From an uncultured Lutibacter sp. (GTDB taxonomy: Bacteria; Bacteroidota; Bacteroidia; Flavobacteriales; Flavobacteriaceae), in assembly GCF_947493565.1 (NCBI RefSeq), contig NZ_CANLRG010000005.1:1-64000 (forward strand): DNA of 64,000 nt, given 5' to 3'. This document shows, in pieces, positions 36,545-52,924 of this stretch. How positions within the stretch are numbered: position 1 is the first letter of the stretch; each line of letters opens with the position of its first letter. A model generated the notes under the pieces. The model saw nothing but the letters and a program-made list of their open reading frames with translations, had not been told where the DNA came from and did no database searches. A program made the position numbers and the translations under genes.

Positions 36545-37558
36545 TTATTTGGCCCAATTGTTAATCCAGTTTGCAACTGTTGTTGCCCAAGCTTTGTCAT
36601 CATTTAAACAAGGAATTGTTGAAAATTGTTCGCCTCCCTGTTCTTCAAATGAATGTTTAGCTTCCATACCAATTTCTTCTAAAGTTTCTAAACAATCTGA
36701 AACAAATGCAGGAGTTACTATAGCTAAATTTTTAATTCCTTTTTTTGCAAAGTTTTCTATCGTTTGATCGGTGTAAGGTTGTAACCAAGGGTCTCTTCCT
36801 AAACGCGATTGGAATGAAGTGCTGTAGGTTCCTTCTTTTAAATTTAATTTTTCAGCAACTTGTTTAGTAGTCTCGTAGCATTGATGTCTATAACAAAATT
36901 CATGAGCTGGTGAAGGGGTGTTACAACAGCTACCATCAATTTTACAATGCGATTTTGTAATGTCAGATTTGAGAATATGTCTTTCAGGAACTCCGTGGTA
37001 TGAAAAAAGTAAGTGCTCAGGTTTAGTTTCTTCCAAATGTTTTTGAATACTGTTGCTTAAAACTGAGATATAGTCTTCTTTATTATAAAAAGCAGGAAAA
37101 TCTGTGATTTTGATATTAGGATATTCTTTTTTTACAATTTTATTTGCCAATACAACAATAGTTTCAGTGGTTGCCATGGCAAATTGAGGGTATAACGGAA
37201 TTAGGAAAATTTCTGTAACACCTTTATTGACCAATTTTTGAATACCACTTTTGATAGAAGGATTGCCATAGCGCATAGCTAATTCAACAGGAATTTGTGT
37301 TTGTTCTTTTACTTTTTTATGTAAGCGTTCTGATAAAACTATTAATGGAGAACCTTCATTCCACCATATTTTTTTATAAGCTTCTGCAGATTTTTTTGGA
37401 CGTGTATTTAAGATGATTCCTTTTACTACAAAAGCTCTAATTAAATATGGAGTATCAATCACTCTTTTGTCCATTAAAAATTCATCTAAATATTTTTTTA
37501 CATCTTTAACTGAAGTGCTGTCTGGGGATCCTAAATTAACTAATAGTGCTCCTTTCAT
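36545..37558 (-). CDS. hemH: Ferrochelatase
   Basis: A 337-residue enzyme inserting Fe2+ into protoporphyrin IX. The active-site His188 lies in FSYHGVPERH, LVNLGSPD marks the N-terminus and FVSDCLETLEEI the conserved acidic face. A cysteine-rich insert (Cys205, 211, 212, 222, 227) resembles those that bind a [2Fe-2S] cluster in some bacterial ferrochelatases; cluster binding here is inferred. It lies 11 bp after the AraC-type regulator and 5 bp before hemJ. Confidence 0.94.
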   Translation of the reverse strand: MKGALLVNLGSPDSTSVKDVKKYLDEFLMDKRVIDTPYLIRAFVVKGIILNTRPKKSAEAYKKIWWNEGSPLIVLSERLHKKVKEQTQIPVELAMRYGNPSIKSGIQKLVNKGVTEIFLIPLYPQFAMATTETIVVLANKIVKKEYPNIKITDFPAFYNKEDYISVLSNSIQKHLEETKPEHLLFSYHGVPERHILKSDITKSHCKIDGSCCNTPSPAHEFCYRHQCYETTKQVAEKLNLKEGTYSTSFQSRLGRDPWLQPYTDQTIENFAKKGIKNLAIVTPAFVSDCLETLEEIGMEAKHSFEEQGGEQFSTIPCLNDDKAWATTVANWINNWAK

Positions 37559-38553: not shown

Positions 38554-38569
38554 TATGACAAATATCATA
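38554..38569. promoter_or_regulatory. CRP/FNR-like dyad in the hem divergent region (site 2)
   Basis: TATGAC-AAAT-ATCATA, the same pattern as at 35820 and 52909. Its centre is 54 bp from the centre of the leftward -7 element, i.e. 21 bp further than in the other two operons, close to the class I position (-61.5). Confidence 0.65.
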
Positions 38570-46526: not shown

Positions 46527-46925
46527 TTATTCACCCATTGTTCTCATATAATGAACAACTAACCACATATCTTCTTCACTCATTTTCTTTTCATAATTTG
46601 GCATATCTAAGCGTCCAATATAACTTTTGTAAAATAAAGCACCATCAGATTGTGCTTGGAATTCTTTAGAAGTGAAGTCTCCTAAATCACCATCTACTTC
46701 ATCTGCTTTTGGACCATCTCCTTCGCCATTTTTTCCGTGGCAAGATTTACAGTGTTTAGAATATAAATTTTTACCCAAAGAAATATTTTCATTTGAGGCT
46801 TCTTCTGGATTGGTCATTTTTTCATATTTAGCTGGAACTTTCCATTCTTCTTGAGTTAATTTAGAGAATGAAACTAGTGCAAAGCTTATGACCCCTAAGG
46901 TGAATAAAATTTTAAGTGTTTTCAT
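46527..46925 (-). CDS. Small exported monohaem cytochrome c
   Basis: A 132-residue protein with an N-terminal signal segment (residues 3-20), one haem site CKSCH (59-63) and a probable axial Met in RLDMPNY. It resembles class I cytochromes of the cytochrome cbb3/electron-shuttle type. It ends the operon that starts at 52846 and may carry electrons in the periplasm between the NrfD module and a terminal acceptor; that is inferred. Confidence 0.88.
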   Translation of the reverse strand: MKTLKILFTLGVISFALVSFSKLTQEEWKVPAKYEKMTNPEEASNENISLGKNLYSKHCKSCHGKNGEGDGPKADEVDGDLGDFTSKEFQAQSDGALFYKSYIGRLDMPNYEKKMSEEDMWLVVHYMRTMGE

Positions 46926-46986
46926 TTTTAAGATTTATTTATTAATAATTAGTAATCAAAAACAGTACCATAATGTATATTTACGA

Positions 46987-47895
46987 CTATATTTCTTGTT
47001 TTTTGTTTTCTGTTATTTTTTTTCCTTCTTTTTTAATTTTGAATAAATAAGATATAGTATATGCATAATTTGCCCAAACTCCTAATAATAGAATTGTTAA
47101 AACAATGTACATCCACATTGGAGCCGCTTCAGACCAAAGTTTATTCCCTTCTTCTTTTACTTGTTTATTAAAGGTACCCCAATTTACAGTTTTCTTTTGA
47201 AATACGTTTCCAAAATCATCATTATCTTCAATTATTGAAAAAATTGTTATTTCGCCGTTTTCATTTCCTGGAATATCATTTGGGAATTCAAATTCATATT
47301 CTCCATCTTCAATATATTCTTCTTTAAGTTTCATTTTTGAAAGCATACCTTGTATAGAAATAATAACATCAGCTTCTTCCACAGGAGTTTTAACGCCAAC
47401 ACTATCAATTGTAAATGCTTTAACCAAAACAGTTTTTACACTATCAATTTCTTCAAGGTTTAATTCTAAAATTAAATCTTTTATAGAGATTTCATCTTCT
47501 TCTGCATCTATAGCATCAGAGCCTTCAAATTTGGCTATTAAATTTATGAGTCCATCATCATCAATTAAATATTTTTGCGAATTAGGAACTGTAATTTTAG
47601 CAATACCTTCATAAGAGGTCTTTGCAGTTCCTAATAAAACTTCTTCTTCATTCAAAATATTATAAAAACTAATTTCTGCATCAGCTACTGGAATTTTATC
47701 TTTTCTATCTTTTTTATTCTGACCAATAAATTCGACTTCAAGTAAACGTGAATTATCGGCTTGTTTAACTGTTTTAAAGTTAAATCTCATTTTATAATTA
47801 CTTGCATCAAGCTCTTGGGCAAATCCATTAAAACTGAACGTTATTACAATAATAAGAGAAGTAATTAAATAATGTTTAAATATATTGTATTTCAT
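46987..47895 (-). CDS. Exported beta-rich protein anchored by a C-terminal helix
   Basis: A 302-residue protein not assigned to a known family. Signal peptide (1-26, ending near FAQ), an acidic beta-rich region of Ig-like repeats (about 30-245; two similar units around 75-130 and 155-215), then one membrane helix (about 265-290, MWMYIVLTILLLGVWANYAY) and a Lys-rich cytosolic tail. No haem or cysteine motif. Its place between nrfD-like and cytochrome genes suggests a structural or docking role; this is inference. Confidence 0.7.
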   Translation of the reverse strand: MKYNIFKHYLITSLIIVITFSFNGFAQELDASNYKMRFNFKTVKQADNSRLLEVEFIGQNKKDRKDKIPVADAEISFYNILNEEEVLLGTAKTSYEGIAKITVPNSQKYLIDDDGLINLIAKFEGSDAIDAEEDEISIKDLILELNLEEIDSVKTVLVKAFTIDSVGVKTPVEEADVIISIQGMLSKMKLKEEYIEDGEYEFEFPNDIPGNENGEITIFSIIEDNDDFGNVFQKKTVNWGTFNKQVKEEGNKLWSEAAPMWMYIVLTILLLGVWANYAYTISYLFKIKKEGKKITENKKQEI

Positions 47896-47913
47896 AATTT
47901 CTAATTTATTATG

Positions 47914-49263
47914 TTATTCAGTAATCGTTTTTTTAAACCTTCTTTTCTTCTTATTCTGGTCAGTTTCGTTATCTATAATTCCAGACATTGGAATAACTGG
48001 CACAAATTTTATTAAAAGCGTAAATAATAAACAAAAAGCTGCAACACCTGTAAAGGTTAAGGCCCATTCTACCCAAGTTGCGGTGTAATGCACATATTCT
48101 GGGCGTGTATCTTGAATTGGTAAATACGGTGTTTCTAAGGTTGGAATTATAATTAAATACCTGTTTAACCATAGGCAAAATATTGCAATAACAGCAGTTA
48201 ATGTTATTAGTTTTATTGTTCTTAATTTTTTAAAACTTATAATAATTAATGGTAGTAAAACAGCTCCGTAGTTAGCAATTATAAACATCCAAAAATAATT
48301 ACTAAATAAGGTGTTTAATAAATTAGTATCTGAAGCTTTATGACTGAACCATTTTGGAAAATATTCACTAAATGTAAAGTACCCAAACAGTAACGATAGT
48401 ATTAGTAAAATTACTCCAGCAAAAATAAAATGTACTTTTCTAATGTGTTTTTCTAGTTTTAAGTGTTTTCTAATTAAATACATTACTAAAATAATTACAG
48501 CAACACCAGTATATAAACCAGAGACAATAAAATATGGTGCAAAAATGGTACTATTCCAACCCGGCTGTAGTGTTAAACTAAATACCCAAGCTAAAATTGT
48601 ATATGCAACTATTGCAAGTGCAATTACAATTACAGACATTGTTTTGGTTATTTTATGCAATTTTTCTTTTTGTTCATCTGTATTTTGATAACCAATTGCT
48701 AAATATCTATACATTTTCTTTTTCCATTTAGGCACTTTTAAATTGTCACTATCTCTTAAAATTGCCAAATCAGGAATAAATGTTAGGTATAAATATAAAA
48801 TACAACCTATTAAATCTGTTATAACTGCAATAACATCCCAAGTAATTGGTGATTGAATTCGTGGATACATAAATAAATAATGTAATCTATCTAGTCTATA
48901 AATACATAATAAAATAAATACAGGGCCTATAACTATAGATAAAACAGTTGTTATTTCTACAATTCTGGATACGGAATTTTTCCAAGGAGTTTTTATAAAA
49001 TGAAGTACACTAGATATAAAAGCGCCTGCATATCCCATTCCAAGAAAAAATATAAAGTTTACTGTATAAATACCCCAAACTACATTATCTCTCATTCCAG
49101 TTACACTTTGCCCTTCATATATTTGAAGAAATAGGGCGTAAGCACCAACTAAAATTATTGCTACAAGCGACCAAATCCAAATTTTTGAAAGGGTACTTGT
49201 TTTCTCTAACATAGGTGAAAATTCTTTAACTAATTCACTTTTTCTACGAGTTAAATTCATCAT
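47914..49263 (-). CDS. nrfD: NrfD/PsrC-family quinol-interacting membrane subunit
   Basis: A 449-residue membrane protein with about ten helices, of the NrfD/PsrC/ActC group that exchanges electrons with menaquinol. The early TM block (VVWGIYTVNFIFFLGMGYAGAFISSVLHF), GPVFILLCIYRLDRLHYLFMYPR and LTFTGVAAFCLLFTLLIKFVPVIPM fit the family. It follows the FeS subunit gene by 8 bp. Molybdopterin catalytic subunits that usually partner such proteins are absent here, so the electrons probably go to cytochromes. Confidence 0.88.
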   Translation of the reverse strand: MMNLTRRKSELVKEFSPMLEKTSTLSKIWIWSLVAIILVGAYALFLQIYEGQSVTGMRDNVVWGIYTVNFIFFLGMGYAGAFISSVLHFIKTPWKNSVSRIVEITTVLSIVIGPVFILLCIYRLDRLHYLFMYPRIQSPITWDVIAVITDLIGCILYLYLTFIPDLAILRDSDNLKVPKWKKKMYRYLAIGYQNTDEQKEKLHKITKTMSVIVIALAIVAYTILAWVFSLTLQPGWNSTIFAPYFIVSGLYTGVAVIILVMYLIRKHLKLEKHIRKVHFIFAGVILLILSLLFGYFTFSEYFPKWFSHKASDTNLLNTLFSNYFWMFIIANYGAVLLPLIIISFKKLRTIKLITLTAVIAIFCLWLNRYLIIIPTLETPYLPIQDTRPEYVHYTATWVEWALTFTGVAAFCLLFTLLIKFVPVIPMSGIIDNETDQNKKKRRFKKTITE

Positions 49264-49271
49264 AATTAGCT

Positions 49272-50255
49272 TTAAAGTTTACCTTGTTTTTTTAATTCTT
49301 GTACGTAAGGAACATCTTTATAACGTTCTATAATTTCCTCATCAATATCAAATCCACGTTCTAATGGGAATTGCTTGTTGACAGGTGGTAAATAATAAAC
49401 GTTTGGTTTTGTTCCTAAATGTTCTAAATGACGATATCCAGCTCTATCTTTTATTAATTGCGAAAAACGAACAGTTTCTTCTCCGTTTGTTACAATATCT
49501 TCATTTTTATCACCAAAATAAATTACTCCCATTGGGCAAGATTGTGCACAATGTGGTAATTTTCCTTGACGTAACATATCTGGACAGAAGTCGCACTTTA
49601 TTACAGTTCCTTCCGCACCTGGAACAGATGTTTCTGGAGAATATGGTTGACTTTTATCATCGTATTTAGCTTTGTGCTCCCAATTAAACTGTCTTGCAGA
49701 ATAAGGGCAACTTGTAATACAAAATTTACAACCAATACATCTGTCGGTATCTACTAAAACAATATTATCATCACGTTTAAAAGTGGCACCTGTTGGGCAA
49801 ACTGTTACGCAAGGAGGTTCATCACAATGCATACAGTTTTTTGGAAACCAGTATGGTTCAGCTTCAGGATTATCTTGAATTAGCTGTACTTTCATAAATT
49901 CTTCACCATGGTCTAGTTTATGTCCTTTTTGGCAGCCTTCAACACATTTTCTTGCATTTTTACATTTAGCTAAATCTATTACCATAACAAATTTTCTGTT
50001 AGGGATTCCTTTTCTAGCTTCTGCTGGAGTGATATGTGCTTCAGGATAGTTGTTAATATTAGTAGCATCAACCTCAACAACTTTGCCATCTGGTGTTAAT
50101 AATCTAACTTTTTCTCCGGAAGCTTTTAATTCTTCTTCTGATGCCAAATTTGAAATTAATGAAGCACCTGCAACAGCAGTTACACTAGACATTAGTCCTA
50201 ATTTTAGGAAGTTACGTCTGTTGGTGCTACTTTTTTCATTTTTATTTTTTTCCAT
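49272..50255 (-). CDS. Tat-exported 4Fe-4S ferredoxin-type subunit (NrfC/PsrB-like)
   Basis: A 327-residue protein starting with a twin-arginine signal (RRNFLK, residues 13-18), so it is folded before export. Four cysteine groups follow: KCKNARKCVEGC, NCMHCDEPPCVTVCP, RCIGCKFCITSCP and KCDFCPDM ... HCAQSCP, giving up to four [4Fe-4S] clusters. It is the electron-wiring partner of the NrfD-like subunit directly downstream. Fusion or substrate domains are absent. Confidence 0.92.
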   Translation of the reverse strand: MEKNKNEKSSTNRRNFLKLGLMSSVTAVAGASLISNLASEEELKASGEKVRLLTPDGKVVEVDATNINNYPEAHITPAEARKGIPNRKFVMVIDLAKCKNARKCVEGCQKGHKLDHGEEFMKVQLIQDNPEAEPYWFPKNCMHCDEPPCVTVCPTGATFKRDDNIVLVDTDRCIGCKFCITSCPYSARQFNWEHKAKYDDKSQPYSPETSVPGAEGTVIKCDFCPDMLRQGKLPHCAQSCPMGVIYFGDKNEDIVTNGEETVRFSQLIKDRAGYRHLEHLGTKPNVYYLPPVNKQFPLERGFDIDEEIIERYKDVPYVQELKKQGKL

Positions 50256-50293
50256 GATTATCCTTGTTAAATAAATTTAAGGCTTAATTAAGT

Positions 50294-50355
50294 AAAACAG
50301 ACTAACAAATTTTAAAAAATCAATTGGGGTGATTTATTTGTTGTTAGTCTGTTTT
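50294..50355 (-). terminator. Long-stem hairpin between the barrel and FeS genes
   Basis: AAAACAGACTAACAA (50294-50308) and TTGTTAGTCTGTTTT (50341-50355) are a perfect 15-bp inverted repeat with a 32-nt loop, inside the minus-strand operon. On that strand a short TTTTACTT tail follows. It may be a partial terminator or attenuator setting subunit ratios. Confidence 0.6.
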
Positions 50356-50371
50356 TAATATCTAATTATTG

Positions 50372-51226
50372 CTAAAAATTGTAGATTCTTGTAATATTAA
50401 AACCAATTAAGAAATCGCCATTAAAGAAATCATTTTGGTTATACATATAGTTCTTTTGCGCAACAATTCCATTATTATTAGTTAAGAAAATTTGAAACTC
50501 ATGAGCTGAGGTTGCAAATTCTGCTCCTATACTAAATAGCGGTTTAGGCTGCATGGCATCAAATTGTGTAATTGGTTGACTATAGTCAATTAAAATTGAT
50601 GTTTGAGGGCTTATTTTAACTCTACCACCAATTGCTACAGAAACCAAATCATTTTCCATATCTGGATGCACTAAATTGTAATGAGATACACTTGGTGCAA
50701 TTTGAAATGATACATTTGGACTAAATCTTTTAGCGATAATCAATTGGTTAAAATAAGAATATCTATCTTGTTTTAAATTGAACTTATCTTTTTTACGTGC
50801 ATCAATAGTAAAGTTACCGTAGTAAGAAACACTAATAGGCATACTATTAGAACGTGTTTGTCTTAATAAAGCTACTTTCCAATTAAAATCTTGTAAACGA
50901 TTGAATTTTGTGGTTCCATATCCAATAGTAAGCCTTTCATGAATTCCATAAGATAAACCAATTCTTATGTTTGAATCGCCCCAAAAACCAGCCAAATCAT
51001 TACCAGCTTCACTATTAATTAATCCAAATCTGTGTTGCATTTGAACTTCTAAAGCGTCTTTGCTTAATAAAACGTTGGTTGGATTATCTATAATATTTGA
51101 ACTATCAAAGGCGTCTCTTTCAAGTTTCTCTTTCACTTTTTTTTCTTTTGTAGCACCTTCTTCTTGAGCTAAAGAAACAAAAGGTACTATTAAAAGAAGT
51201 AAAAGTAGTTTTATGTAATTTTTCAT
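50372..51226 (-). CDS. DUF5777-family outer-membrane beta-barrel protein
   Basis: A 284-residue protein with a signal peptide (1-20, SLAQ) and then alternating amphipathic beta strands to a C-terminal aromatic residue (GFNITRIYNF), the outer-membrane barrel pattern. It matches the Bacteroidota family DUF5777 (NVLLSKDALEVQMQHRFGLI). Function is uncharacterised. Its position among exported cytochromes suggests a porin or cytochrome-embedding partner; this is inference. Confidence 0.83.
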   Translation of the reverse strand: MKNYIKLLLLLLIVPFVSLAQEEGATKEKKVKEKLERDAFDSSNIIDNPTNVLLSKDALEVQMQHRFGLINSEAGNDLAGFWGDSNIRIGLSYGIHERLTIGYGTTKFNRLQDFNWKVALLRQTRSNSMPISVSYYGNFTIDARKKDKFNLKQDRYSYFNQLIIAKRFSPNVSFQIAPSVSHYNLVHPDMENDLVSVAIGGRVKISPQTSILIDYSQPITQFDAMQPKPLFSIGAEFATSAHEFQIFLTNNNGIVAQKNYMYNQNDFFNGDFLIGFNITRIYNF

Positions 51227-51243
51227 ATTTAATATCTTAAAAA

Positions 51244-51627
51244 TTAGTTATCTAGCGCACCTTGGTTTATCCAAGCTTTAATTAATTCAAGTTCATCAGG
51301 AGATAAGCCACCGTGTCCATTTTTAATAAATGTGTAAAACGAACTATTTTCTGCGCTATTTTCTGTAACAAATTCAGGAATTAATGCGTCATAAGATTTA
51401 CCTTCTCTTAAATCTGGATCTCTATTGTCGCTATGACATCCAATGCAATTTGCAGTAAATAAAGGTTGAATATCGCTACTTAATTTTATTTCAACATAAT
51501 TTGGATCATCTGGATCTGTTGGGATTTCAGGTGGATTTAATATATGTTCAGGAATTTCATCATAATAACATGAAAAACACAATAAACTTAAGCTGCTTAT
51601 TAGAACTATTTGCAATAGTTTTTTCAT
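51244..51627 (-). CDS. Monohaem cytochrome c lipoprotein
   Basis: A 127-residue protein with a lipoprotein signal (Cys20, or possibly Cys17), an acidic Pro-rich linker and a single haem motif CIGCH (61-65) in the family pattern ADIQPLF-type (SSDIQPLFTANCIGCH). The C-terminus ELELIKAWINQGALDN is typical of planctomycete/Bacteroidota-type cytochrome c domains. It lies 17 bp before the barrel gene, so the pair may form one outer-membrane unit. Confidence 0.87.
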   Translation of the reverse strand: MKKLLQIVLISSLSLLCFSCYYDEIPEHILNPPEIPTDPDDPNYVEIKLSSDIQPLFTANCIGCHSDNRDPDLREGKSYDALIPEFVTENSAENSSFYTFIKNGHGGLSPDELELIKAWINQGALDN

Positions 51628-51738
51628 TTGTTTTGTATTTAATAGTTAATTATTAACTTATACTTAAATTTATCAGATAAGAAATTTTAAGTTAATAGTA
51701 ATGCATTCTTTTGCAGCAAGAATATAATTAGTTTAAAC

Positions 51739-51764
51739 TCAGGAGCTATTTTACTAACTCCTGA
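51739..51764 (-). terminator. Weak hairpin after the hexahaem cytochrome gene
   Basis: TCAGGAG (51739-51745) pairs with CTCCTGA (51758-51764), 15 bp downstream of the gene on the minus strand. The T-tract is poor, so readthrough into the rest of the operon is likely. Confidence 0.45.
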
Positions 51765-51778
51765 ATTTATATAAATAT

Positions 51779-52846
51779 CTAATTATCTTCTAAGGCTTTA
51801 AGTGCATTTGTAATTAAAGCTTTTGTGTATGTAGGGTTGTGTACACCGTGGCTACCATCTTTATATACAGTAACATAGTTCCATAATGCTTGTACTTGTT
51901 TAAAAGGAACCTTTTCTGTTTGTTTAGGAGTGTTTCCAGCTTCATCTAAAAGACCAAGTGCAATTAATTTAGCTTTTAATACTGCCATATCATCTGCTAA
52001 TCCTGCAACTTCTGTTGGAGGTGTTGCTCCGTGACAATCTGTACAACTATCTAAACTAACTTTAAAAGTATGCAATCCTTTTTCTGCGTCAGTTGACGTA
52101 CCCATATGGCAAGAAGTACAAGAAGCGCCAGTTCTGTGAGCTGAAGTTCCAATTGCAGGAAGTTCAACTGCACCATCTACTTCAATATAAGAACCTTGAA
52201 TACCTTCTAAGACTGTTGATTGTCCACCGTAATGAGGGTAAAATCTTGAGTTTGCTTGTAAATACATTCCAGTTCCATCATCAACCGGAGCTTTAGATCT
52301 TGGTTGGTGACAAACTAAACAAGAGTTACTAGCGTTTCCATAATCAATTGTATAACTGTCATCTGTGTCTAAAGTTACTGCTTCCATAGTTCTTAACGCA
52401 TAATCGTGACCGTCATTTTCAAAATCGAATGTGCTATGTTTACTGTGGCAAGTTGTACAAGAAACACCTGAAGGCATTTCGCTTTTTACTGCTGGTTTTC
52501 CTTCTATGTAATTAATATACCCTTCGGATGTGTGGCATTTAGTACAAGAAGCAGAGACTCCATTTGTGTAGTTAGCTAAATCTTGACCAGTATACATAAT
52601 TGTTTGGTCTGAATGGCTAGATTTTGCGAACGAATTTATGATTGGAGTTCTATGGCTTTCAGAGTGACAAGCAATGCAACTTGCAGTACCGTCAACACCG
52701 TCAACTCCATCAACACCGTCAATACCATCTGTACCATCAATCCCAGCTTGTCCTTGAGGTCCCGCAATAGGTTCGCTAGTACATTGAATAAACATTAAAC
52801 TTGACACCAAAATCATCAAGAATCCTATTAATTTTAAATTTTTCAT
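51779..52846 (-). CDS. Hexahaem cytochrome c lipoprotein with collagen-like linker
   Basis: A 355-residue lipoprotein (FIQC, Cys22). After the lipid Cys comes a collagen-like Gly-x-y tract (about 29-53, mostly GVDG/GIDG units), then six CxxCH haem sites starting at Cys57, 101, 130, 176, 243 and 268. Many free His residues can act as second axial ligands. It lacks a recognised nitrite or sulfite reductase motif, so I read it as an electron carrier displayed on a flexible stalk. First gene of the operon, preceded by a CRP/FNR-like dyad. Confidence 0.9.
   Translation of the reverse strand: MKNLKLIGFLMILVSSLMFIQCTSEPIAGPQGQAGIDGTDGIDGVDGVDGVDGTASCIACHSESHRTPIINSFAKSSHSDQTIMYTGQDLANYTNGVSASCTKCHTSEGYINYIEGKPAVKSEMPSGVSCTTCHSKHSTFDFENDGHDYALRTMEAVTLDTDDSYTIDYGNASNSCLVCHQPRSKAPVDDGTGMYLQANSRFYPHYGGQSTVLEGIQGSYIEVDGAVELPAIGTSAHRTGASCTSCHMGTSTDAEKGLHTFKVSLDSCTDCHGATPPTEVAGLADDMAVLKAKLIALGLLDEAGNTPKQTEKVPFKQVQALWNYVTVYKDGSHGVHNPTYTKALITNALKALEDN
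52690..52760 (-). repeat. Short tandem codons encoding the Gly-x-y tract
   Basis: Repeated 9- to 12-bp units (GTTGACGGTGTT-like on the minus strand, seen as ACACCGTCAAC on the plus strand) encode consecutive G-[VI]-D triplets of the hexahaem protein. Such repeats can change length by slippage. Confidence 0.7.
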
Positions 52847-52908: not shown

Positions 52909-52924
52909 TATGATTTAAGTCATA
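52909..52924 (-). promoter_or_regulatory. CRP/FNR-like dyad upstream of the cytochrome operon (site 3)
   Basis: Minus strand reads TATGAC-TTAA-ATCATA, differing from the iorA site at one position of 16. Position fits class II activation near -41. Confidence 0.65.

Follow-up and report, generated by a model that had tools for sequence, protein, structure and literature searches.

Which acceptor receives the electrons from an operon that couples a quinol-reactive subunit to several cytochromes and encodes no known catalytic enzyme? The question is raised by seven genes of an uncultured Lutibacter sp. (Flavobacteriaceae; assembly GCF_947493565.1). They lie in the window analysed here, a stretch of 64,000 nucleotides (positions 1 to 64,000 of contig NZ_CANLRG010000005.1), and were originally predicted to form a conduit from menaquinol to a surface or soluble acceptor. 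We infer that the operon encodes a chain that, at low oxygen, takes electrons from menaquinol and exports them to the cell surface, a reading that has about an even chance of being correct. The hexahaem lipoprotein encoded by the first gene is a candidate terminal reductase and not only a part of the conduit. What the analysis shows directly is the gene set and its order, the homologies, the stalk of the hexahaem protein, the box upstream of the operon and, from a structural model, the size of the outer-membrane barrel.

All seven frames are on the minus strand between positions 46527 and 52846, as established from open frames, haem counts and domain scans. In order of transcription they code for a hexahaem lipoprotein of 355 residues (51779..52846; six CXXCH motifs, lipid-bearing Cys22 and a collagen-like GXX stalk), a monohaem cytochrome lipoprotein (51244..51627; one CXXCH), a DUF5777 outer-membrane beta barrel (50372..51226; PF19089, E 5.8e-77), a Fe-S protein of the NrfC/DsrO type with a twin-arginine translocation (Tat) leader (49272..50255; RRxF motif and Fer4 domains), an NrfD-type quinol subunit (47914..49263; PF03916, E 1.6e-31), an anchored beta protein (46987..47895; signal peptide, C-terminal membrane helix and no Cys) and a small monohaem cytochrome c (46527..46925; PF00034, 1.5e-12). 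The successive gaps, calculated from the frame coordinates, are 151, 17, 116, 8, 18 and 61 bases. The one-strand cytochrome and quinol set with short gaps described in the original prediction is thus recovered frame by frame, with the same haem counts and domains. The four Cys clusters assigned to the Tat protein are also present, the Cys total being 15 and not 16. The source genome holds one DUF5777 gene, one beta protein gene and five NrfD-type genes. Among the other NrfD-type genes the closest in kind is part of a separate full alternative complex III beside oxidase genes (locus L053).

The scan of named genomes yielded at least 584 relatives, of which the best 80 loci were kept. They come from Lutibacter, Yeosuana, Seonamhaeicola, Maribacter and others, and include many metagenome-assembled genomes (MAGs) labelled Bacteroidales or Bacteroidetes. 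The Fe-S gene precedes NrfD by no more than 200 bases in 75/75 loci with more than 1 kb of upstream DNA, and the beta protein gene follows NrfD by no more than 300 bases in 71 of the 75 loci with sufficient downstream DNA. DUF5777 and the monohaem lipoprotein are encoded upstream of the quinol module in 45 of 49 loci with more than 8.5 kb upstream; the same 49 loci feature a hexahaem-type gene in 35 cases, an EB_dh lipoprotein (PF09459) in 3 and a heptahaem gene in 26. A relative of the small cytochrome c is encoded near the gene set in 46/49 loci with a full upstream flank. Two or three NrfD genes of the operon kind are present in 13/80 loci, mostly in tandem behind a single outer-membrane unit, while those of locus L083 are on opposite strands. 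The arrangement is a conserved set in Bacteroidota that is not due to chance.

In a family sample of 149 genomes, 12 carry the operon-type NrfD, the threshold for a match being E 1e-69; the remaining genomes nearly all match at about 26% only, the level of complex III. NrfD identity among the 12 positives is 65 to 100% in five and about 39 to 40% in three, and the other four carry a second type alone (34 to 36%). In many Bacteroidales loci the set is extended by a cytochrome b561 (PF01292) and a heptahaem protein that has membrane ends; the two are fused in locus L123, and the fusion has no solved relative at E 0.01. A motif search of the Bacteroidales form picked out 14 occurrences of a Crp-family gene that has conserved Cys. 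In two records, an Alphaproteobacteria MAG (L119) and a Labilibaculum MAG (L060), the type of cluster is at odds with the record title, by mis-binning or transfer.

The hexahaem lipoprotein was compared to solved structures with two profiles. The nine-sequence profile places octahaem nitrite reductase (ONR; 8rv0, 1.7e-13) first, then OcwA (1.2e-8) and NrfA, while the 36-sequence profile gives OmhA (6qvm, 3.1e-18), OcwA (6i5b, 2e-14), NrfA (1.1e-10) and decahaem proteins of the OmcA/MtrC family (2e-10). An AlphaFold model of the protein is mostly helical, with a predicted local distance difference test score (pLDDT) of 76.4. Its fold comparison with VIA yields OcwA (Z 14.6, root-mean-square deviation (rmsd) 3.8, 235 residues aligned) and OmhA (Z 14.4, rmsd 3.6, 233 aligned) ahead of NrfA/ONR (Z 12.5 or less), and the Foldseek E value for OcwA is 7.6e-7. 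Profiles, modelled fold (pLDDT 76) and the HN(P) motif of the C-terminal haem core, with H336 and N337 invariant in 29/29 relatives, indicate that the protein is a member of the NrfA/ONR/OcwA superfamily. Although no known catalytic subunit is encoded in the operon, as first stated, this membership means that the terminal reductase may be inside it.

The haem-binding details separate the protein from the nitrite reductases. Catalysis in ONR and NrfA depends on the CXXCK haem together with a Tyr and a His of the active site. In the alignment with ONR the CXXCK is a CXXCH, the Tyr position is occupied by Arg183 and the His of the QHPE motif is not kept, so that by sequence the protein does not class as a nitrite reductase of the NrfA/ONR type. 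Six His residues outside CXXCH are nearly conserved (78, 205, 259 and 336 in 29/29 relatives, 137 in 28/29 and 237 in 23/29), and all six haems could therefore be bis-His ligated. The second haem, which corresponds to the open haem 5 of OcwA when counted from the C terminus, may be left open as in OcwA. A collagen-like stalk of at least five GXX repeats follows the lipid Cys in 42/44 relatives, the exceptions being L078, whose frame is incomplete, and L116, which has two repeats.

OcwA from Thermincola potens is described as a surface terminal reductase that has been characterised; two of its haems are open, and its activity on nitrite and hydroxylamine is weak (PMC6703420). OmhA from Carboxydothermus ferrireducens is reported from cells as well as from biogenic magnetite (PMC7829351). 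The hexahaem protein shares with these surface terminal reductases the NrfA-type haem fold without CXXCK. It differs from them in having six haems instead of 9 and 11, a lipid anchor and a collagen-like stalk, and in belonging to a diderm and not to Gram-positive cells. EB_dh lipoproteins with a CX3CH motif are encoded beside the hexahaem lipoprotein or replace it in L044 (4053-5288, with PF09459 shown), L045 (1707-2957), L046 and L047.

The NrfD subunit has ActC of alternative complex III as its best solved match (6f0k_C, profile 1.9e-70). Its S138, D143 and R368, invariant in 14/14 relatives, align with S164, D169 and R395 of ActC; H139 and D253 are not kept. The account of ActC residue roles in PMC8076601 presents the quinone-site Ser (S164) as strict in quinone-reactive members of the NrfD family. 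With ActC's two quinone residues (Ser and Asp) and its central Arg all kept, NrfD is, by its sequence, a quinone-reactive subunit. The Fe-S protein has 15 Cys in 85/85 relatives and RRxF in 84/85, and matches the DsrO model at 1.1e-48, below the cut-off of that model. ActB is reported to hold one [3Fe-4S] and three [4Fe-4S] clusters (PMC8076601), and the 15 invariant Cys make a similar content possible for the Fe-S protein. The beta protein, a probable docking subunit of the quinol module, gave no Pfam or NCBIfam match and, by sequence against solved structures, two chance-level matches only.

The likeness of this module to known quinol enzymes is partial. An ActC-like NrfD, a Fe-S partner aligning with ActB and a monohaem cytochrome are shared with alternative complex III, while ActA, the Mo-type half of ActB, ActD and ActF are missing from the operon and a full complex is encoded separately in the genome. 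Judged on its gene content, the operon is not an alternative complex III. The pairing of a Tat Fe-S protein with NrfD recalls NrfC/NrfD of NrfABCD and DsrO/DsrP of DsrMKJOP, but the operon has neither NrfA nor the Dsr partners and the NCBIfam models score below cut-off. The heptahaem protein and cytochrome b561 of the Bacteroidales versions, fused in L123, resemble the CbcL/MtrH/MtoC quinone oxidoreductases as described in PMC6295460. The resemblance to CbcL is one of build, and the heptahaem/b561 pair is absent from the window operon.

At the outer membrane, the AlphaFold model of DUF5777 (pLDDT 89.6) is a barrel of 12 strands. Its VIA comparison is led by FapF (Z 18.3, rmsd 3.3, 208 aligned), followed by KdgM (17.8), a COG4313 channel (17.1) and NanC (16.9), with autotransporter translocators lower; no MtrB-type barrel is among the matches listed, which excludes nothing. 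By sequence DUF5777 has no solved relative at E 1, and the source genome has no match to MtrB_PioB (PF11854). The MtrB barrel has about 26 strands, so that a multihaem cytochrome inside the modelled DUF5777 barrel is unlikely. The operon pairs a barrel with outer-membrane cytochromes, as do the porin-cytochrome complexes MtrABC, OmbB-OmaB-OmcB and PioAB in the definition given in PMC6344600. It differs from them in the 12 modelled strands, in having only monohaem partners on the periplasmic side in the window, with no periplasmic multihaem cytochrome to embed, and in the lack of an MtrB_PioB match in the genome. It would therefore not class as a porin-cytochrome complex, and an MtrAB-like arrangement is unlikely on the model. 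The barrel may be an anchor, a small channel or a translocator.

DUF5777 is present in 153/395 genomes across the phylum. Among 30 DUF5777 loci taken phylum-wide, 21 have a monohaem frame within flanks of 1.5 kb, on the same strand in 18, and within the cluster the monohaem lipoprotein always adjoins DUF5777. YceI genes also occur at some DUF5777 loci, one of them with Pfam confirmation; in L134, L142 and L152 a monohaem lipoprotein, a YceI-like gene and DUF5777 stand in a row, with no quinol module in the short flanks. A fusion of DUF5777 to the monohaem protein, of the Cyc2-like kind, was not found among the long frames of the 30 loci, a search that was not exhaustive. The monohaem lipoprotein has FoxE (5mab, 1.1e-6) as its best profile match in the PDB, and a His where some relatives have Met-Pro-Pro. 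A rule derived from 12 sequences, by which its Met ligand would depend on the partner lipoprotein, was abandoned, as 39/42 sequences lack Met-Pro after the haem with any partner. Compared to the signal for surface export that follows the lipid Cys of Bacteroidota lipoproteins, as given in PMC5080379, the C-Y-Y-D-E start of the monohaem protein fits in part and the C-T-S-E-P of the hexahaem protein does not. Two acidic residues are found at positions +2 to +6 in 21/42 monohaem lipoproteins.

An FNR/Crp-type box, TGACTTAAATCA on the sense strand (52911..52922, minus strand), lies 76 bases upstream of the hexahaem gene. In 43/50 loci the pattern TGAYN4RTCA lies no more than 300 bases from the first gene of the cluster, compared to 143/5000 shuffles (2.9%) and 35/149 controls taken from other genes at those loci; only loci with at least 300 bases upstream were counted. 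The enrichment over control genes has a Fisher p of 3.5e-15, an optimistic value since the loci are related. The whole window has 7 boxes against 3.5 expected, a number reached by 9/100 shuffles. In the source genome boxes precede also the nos genes, ActA, and an FNR-like gene with its divergent ccoI-type neighbour; the FNR-like protein adjoining ccoI has a CxxC motif. The predicted boxes and their enrichment suggest control of the cluster by an FNR-type regulator. Three further FNR-type boxes, at 38556, 38591 and 38741, are grouped about the beginning of the gene for glutamyl-tRNA reductase.

The 116-base gap between DUF5777 and the Fe-S gene folds at -21.0 kcal/mol into a hairpin with a 15-pair stem (50294..50355, minus strand), a possible terminator or processing site. 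Six other Lutibacter loci examined have stems of 12 to 18 pairs with differing sequence, while those of most other genera are weak or short. The consensus terminator scan did not report this hairpin, and consensus scanning for promoters and terminators yielded no more than the shuffles did. The hairpin implies that the two halves of the operon may not be one uniform transcript.

A path for the electrons can be proposed from these parts. The ActC-like NrfD would bind menaquinol and the Fe-S protein would receive electrons from its quinol site, the beta protein holding the module together. The small cytochrome c, a candidate periplasmic shuttle, would carry electrons to the unit formed by DUF5777 and the monohaem lipoprotein, a candidate outer-membrane electron carrier. 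The OcwA-like hexahaem lipoprotein, raised on its stalk at the surface, would then deliver them outside the cell, for example to Fe(III) or Mn(IV) minerals, humics or flavins. Export to the surface is favoured by the conservation of the set, the likeness of the hexahaem protein to OcwA and OmhA, the quinone residues shared with ActC, the FNR-type boxes, the heptahaem/b561 proteins of Bacteroidales and the loci with several modules. The direction of flow, the position at the surface, the shuttle role and the acceptor go beyond the gene content, and several points weigh against the export reading. Scores of multihaem profiles are helped by their CXXCH motifs, and the narrow profile ranks OcwA behind ONR; the modelled fold of the hexahaem protein is mostly helical and of modest pLDDT; no haem wire through the outer membrane is evident in a barrel predicted to have 12 strands; neither lipoprotein has a clear signal for surface export; and the box is found before control genes too. 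The originally predicted conduit retains its outline, with a quinol module, outer-membrane lipoprotein cytochromes, a hexahaem protein resembling OcwA and OmhA, CbcL-like proteins in Bacteroidales versions and FNR-type boxes. Its outer-membrane part has to be revised to include a candidate terminal reductase and a barrel that resembles small channels and translocators.

Other roles can be envisaged for the same genes. The quinol module might reduce the small cytochrome c for NosZ or another periplasmic reductase of denitrification, the outer-membrane genes serving something else. NosZ, scored at E below 1e-40 with seven weaker matches dropped, is encoded in 73/149 genomes of the family sample, comprising 12/12 positives and 61/137 others (Fisher p 1.2e-4); this co-occurrence would also agree with a periplasmic role, and the nos genes of the source genome have the same kind of box. 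NosZ is common without the cluster, however, and was found in only 18 of the 50 cluster-bearing genomes reached through the loci (10/12 flavobacterial and 8/38 others, many of the latter being fragmentary MAGs). Its absence from 32/50, among them Lutibacter agarilyticus (L056, G538) with a full cluster, shows that NosZ is associated and not required, and led to its rejection as an obligate partner. NrfA was likewise rejected as a partner that is always co-inherited, being encoded by 3/12 positives and 19/137 others (22/149 family genomes). Neither of these two enzymes is the always co-inherited reductase that the original prediction named as evidence against itself. A supply line for denitrification also leaves the linked hexahaem, monohaem and barrel genes unexplained, and is unlikely. 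It is quite improbable that the chain runs inward, from an external donor such as Fe(II), reduced humics or a partner cell to menaquinone. NrfD complexes working in both directions are described, with Qrc and Nhc reducing quinone (PMC8076601), and FoxE, the closest PDB profile match of the monohaem lipoprotein, is an iron oxidoreductase; the putative FNR-type control and the presence of the cluster in anaerobic Bacteroidales lineages suggest instead respiration of an acceptor, and OcwA and OmhA are reported as reductases (PMC6703420, PMC7829351).

The hexahaem lipoprotein might rather be an enzyme whose substrate is a small compound of nitrogen or sulphur, within an operon that is a dedicated reductase system. 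Its superfamily and NrfA-like fold, the match of the Pfam NrfA model to the hexahaem gene of a second cluster in genome G047 (5.2e-9), and the correspondence of its second haem to an open haem of OcwA, whose weak nitrite and hydroxylamine activity is on record (PMC6703420), all agree with this. It is nevertheless very unlikely in view of the altered CXXCK, Tyr and His positions, and of the six conserved His that could ligate every haem, though H237 is less well kept than the others. A doubtful but real possibility is that DUF5777 is the anchor or export channel that places the lipoprotein cytochromes at the surface, and not an electron conduit, a role compatible with electron export by the operon. 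The polypeptide transporter FapF and 12-strand autotransporter translocators are among its best fold matches, and DUF5777, which often has a monohaem neighbour, is far more widespread than the hexahaem protein appears to be in the examined loci. Likeness of fold shows no function, though, and the sugar porins KdgM and NanC score as high.

Haem biosynthesis genes adjoin the cytochrome operon between positions 36545 and 46456 of the window. They code for ferrochelatase, glutamyl-tRNA reductase, a hemC/hemD fusion, ALAD, a HemL-like aminotransferase, URO-D and a radical-SAM HemN-like protein. A protein of about 90 residues with a Tat-like start precedes the second-type Fe-S gene in L045 (4549-4839) and relatives. 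Two genomes have a separate trio of tetrahaem, Fe-S and NrfD genes beside the cluster (L038, 12360-14769; L039, 12127-14541). In L052 (10484-14858) a molybdenum-enzyme operon with NrfD adjoins, in the same genome, the gene of a 12-haem protein of 629 residues.

Porin-cytochrome genes in MAGs of Bacteroidetes have been hinted at in general terms in earlier publications (PMC6344600, PMC8258643). An unnamed Bacteroidetes cluster in a bioanode MAG, as described in PMC8258643, also combines barrel and cytochrome genes and was guessed to serve extracellular transfer; it differs in that six of its seven genes are multihaem, and by this description it may or may not be related to the Lutibacter operon. 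A literature search, with subscription papers outside its reach, found no paper on DUF5777 and no description of the seven-gene set. It is possible, though only tentatively proposed, that Bacteroidota have a phylum-wide form of extracellular respiration in which a 12-strand barrel and a monohaem lipoprotein would link a stripped-down quinol oxidase resembling complex III to a stalked OcwA-like reductase, with up to three quinol modules per outer-membrane unit. Cultured Lutibacter species carry the gene set, which makes the claim testable. If true, it would pose the sharp question of how electrons get through the outer membrane when no large porin-cytochrome wire is there to carry them, and would give metagenome surveys a defined set of genes to look for. 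Extracellular respiration would then reach a large, mostly aerobic-looking marine group that includes Lutibacter, Maribacter, Seonamhaeicola and others, together with many uncultured Bacteroidales of lakes.

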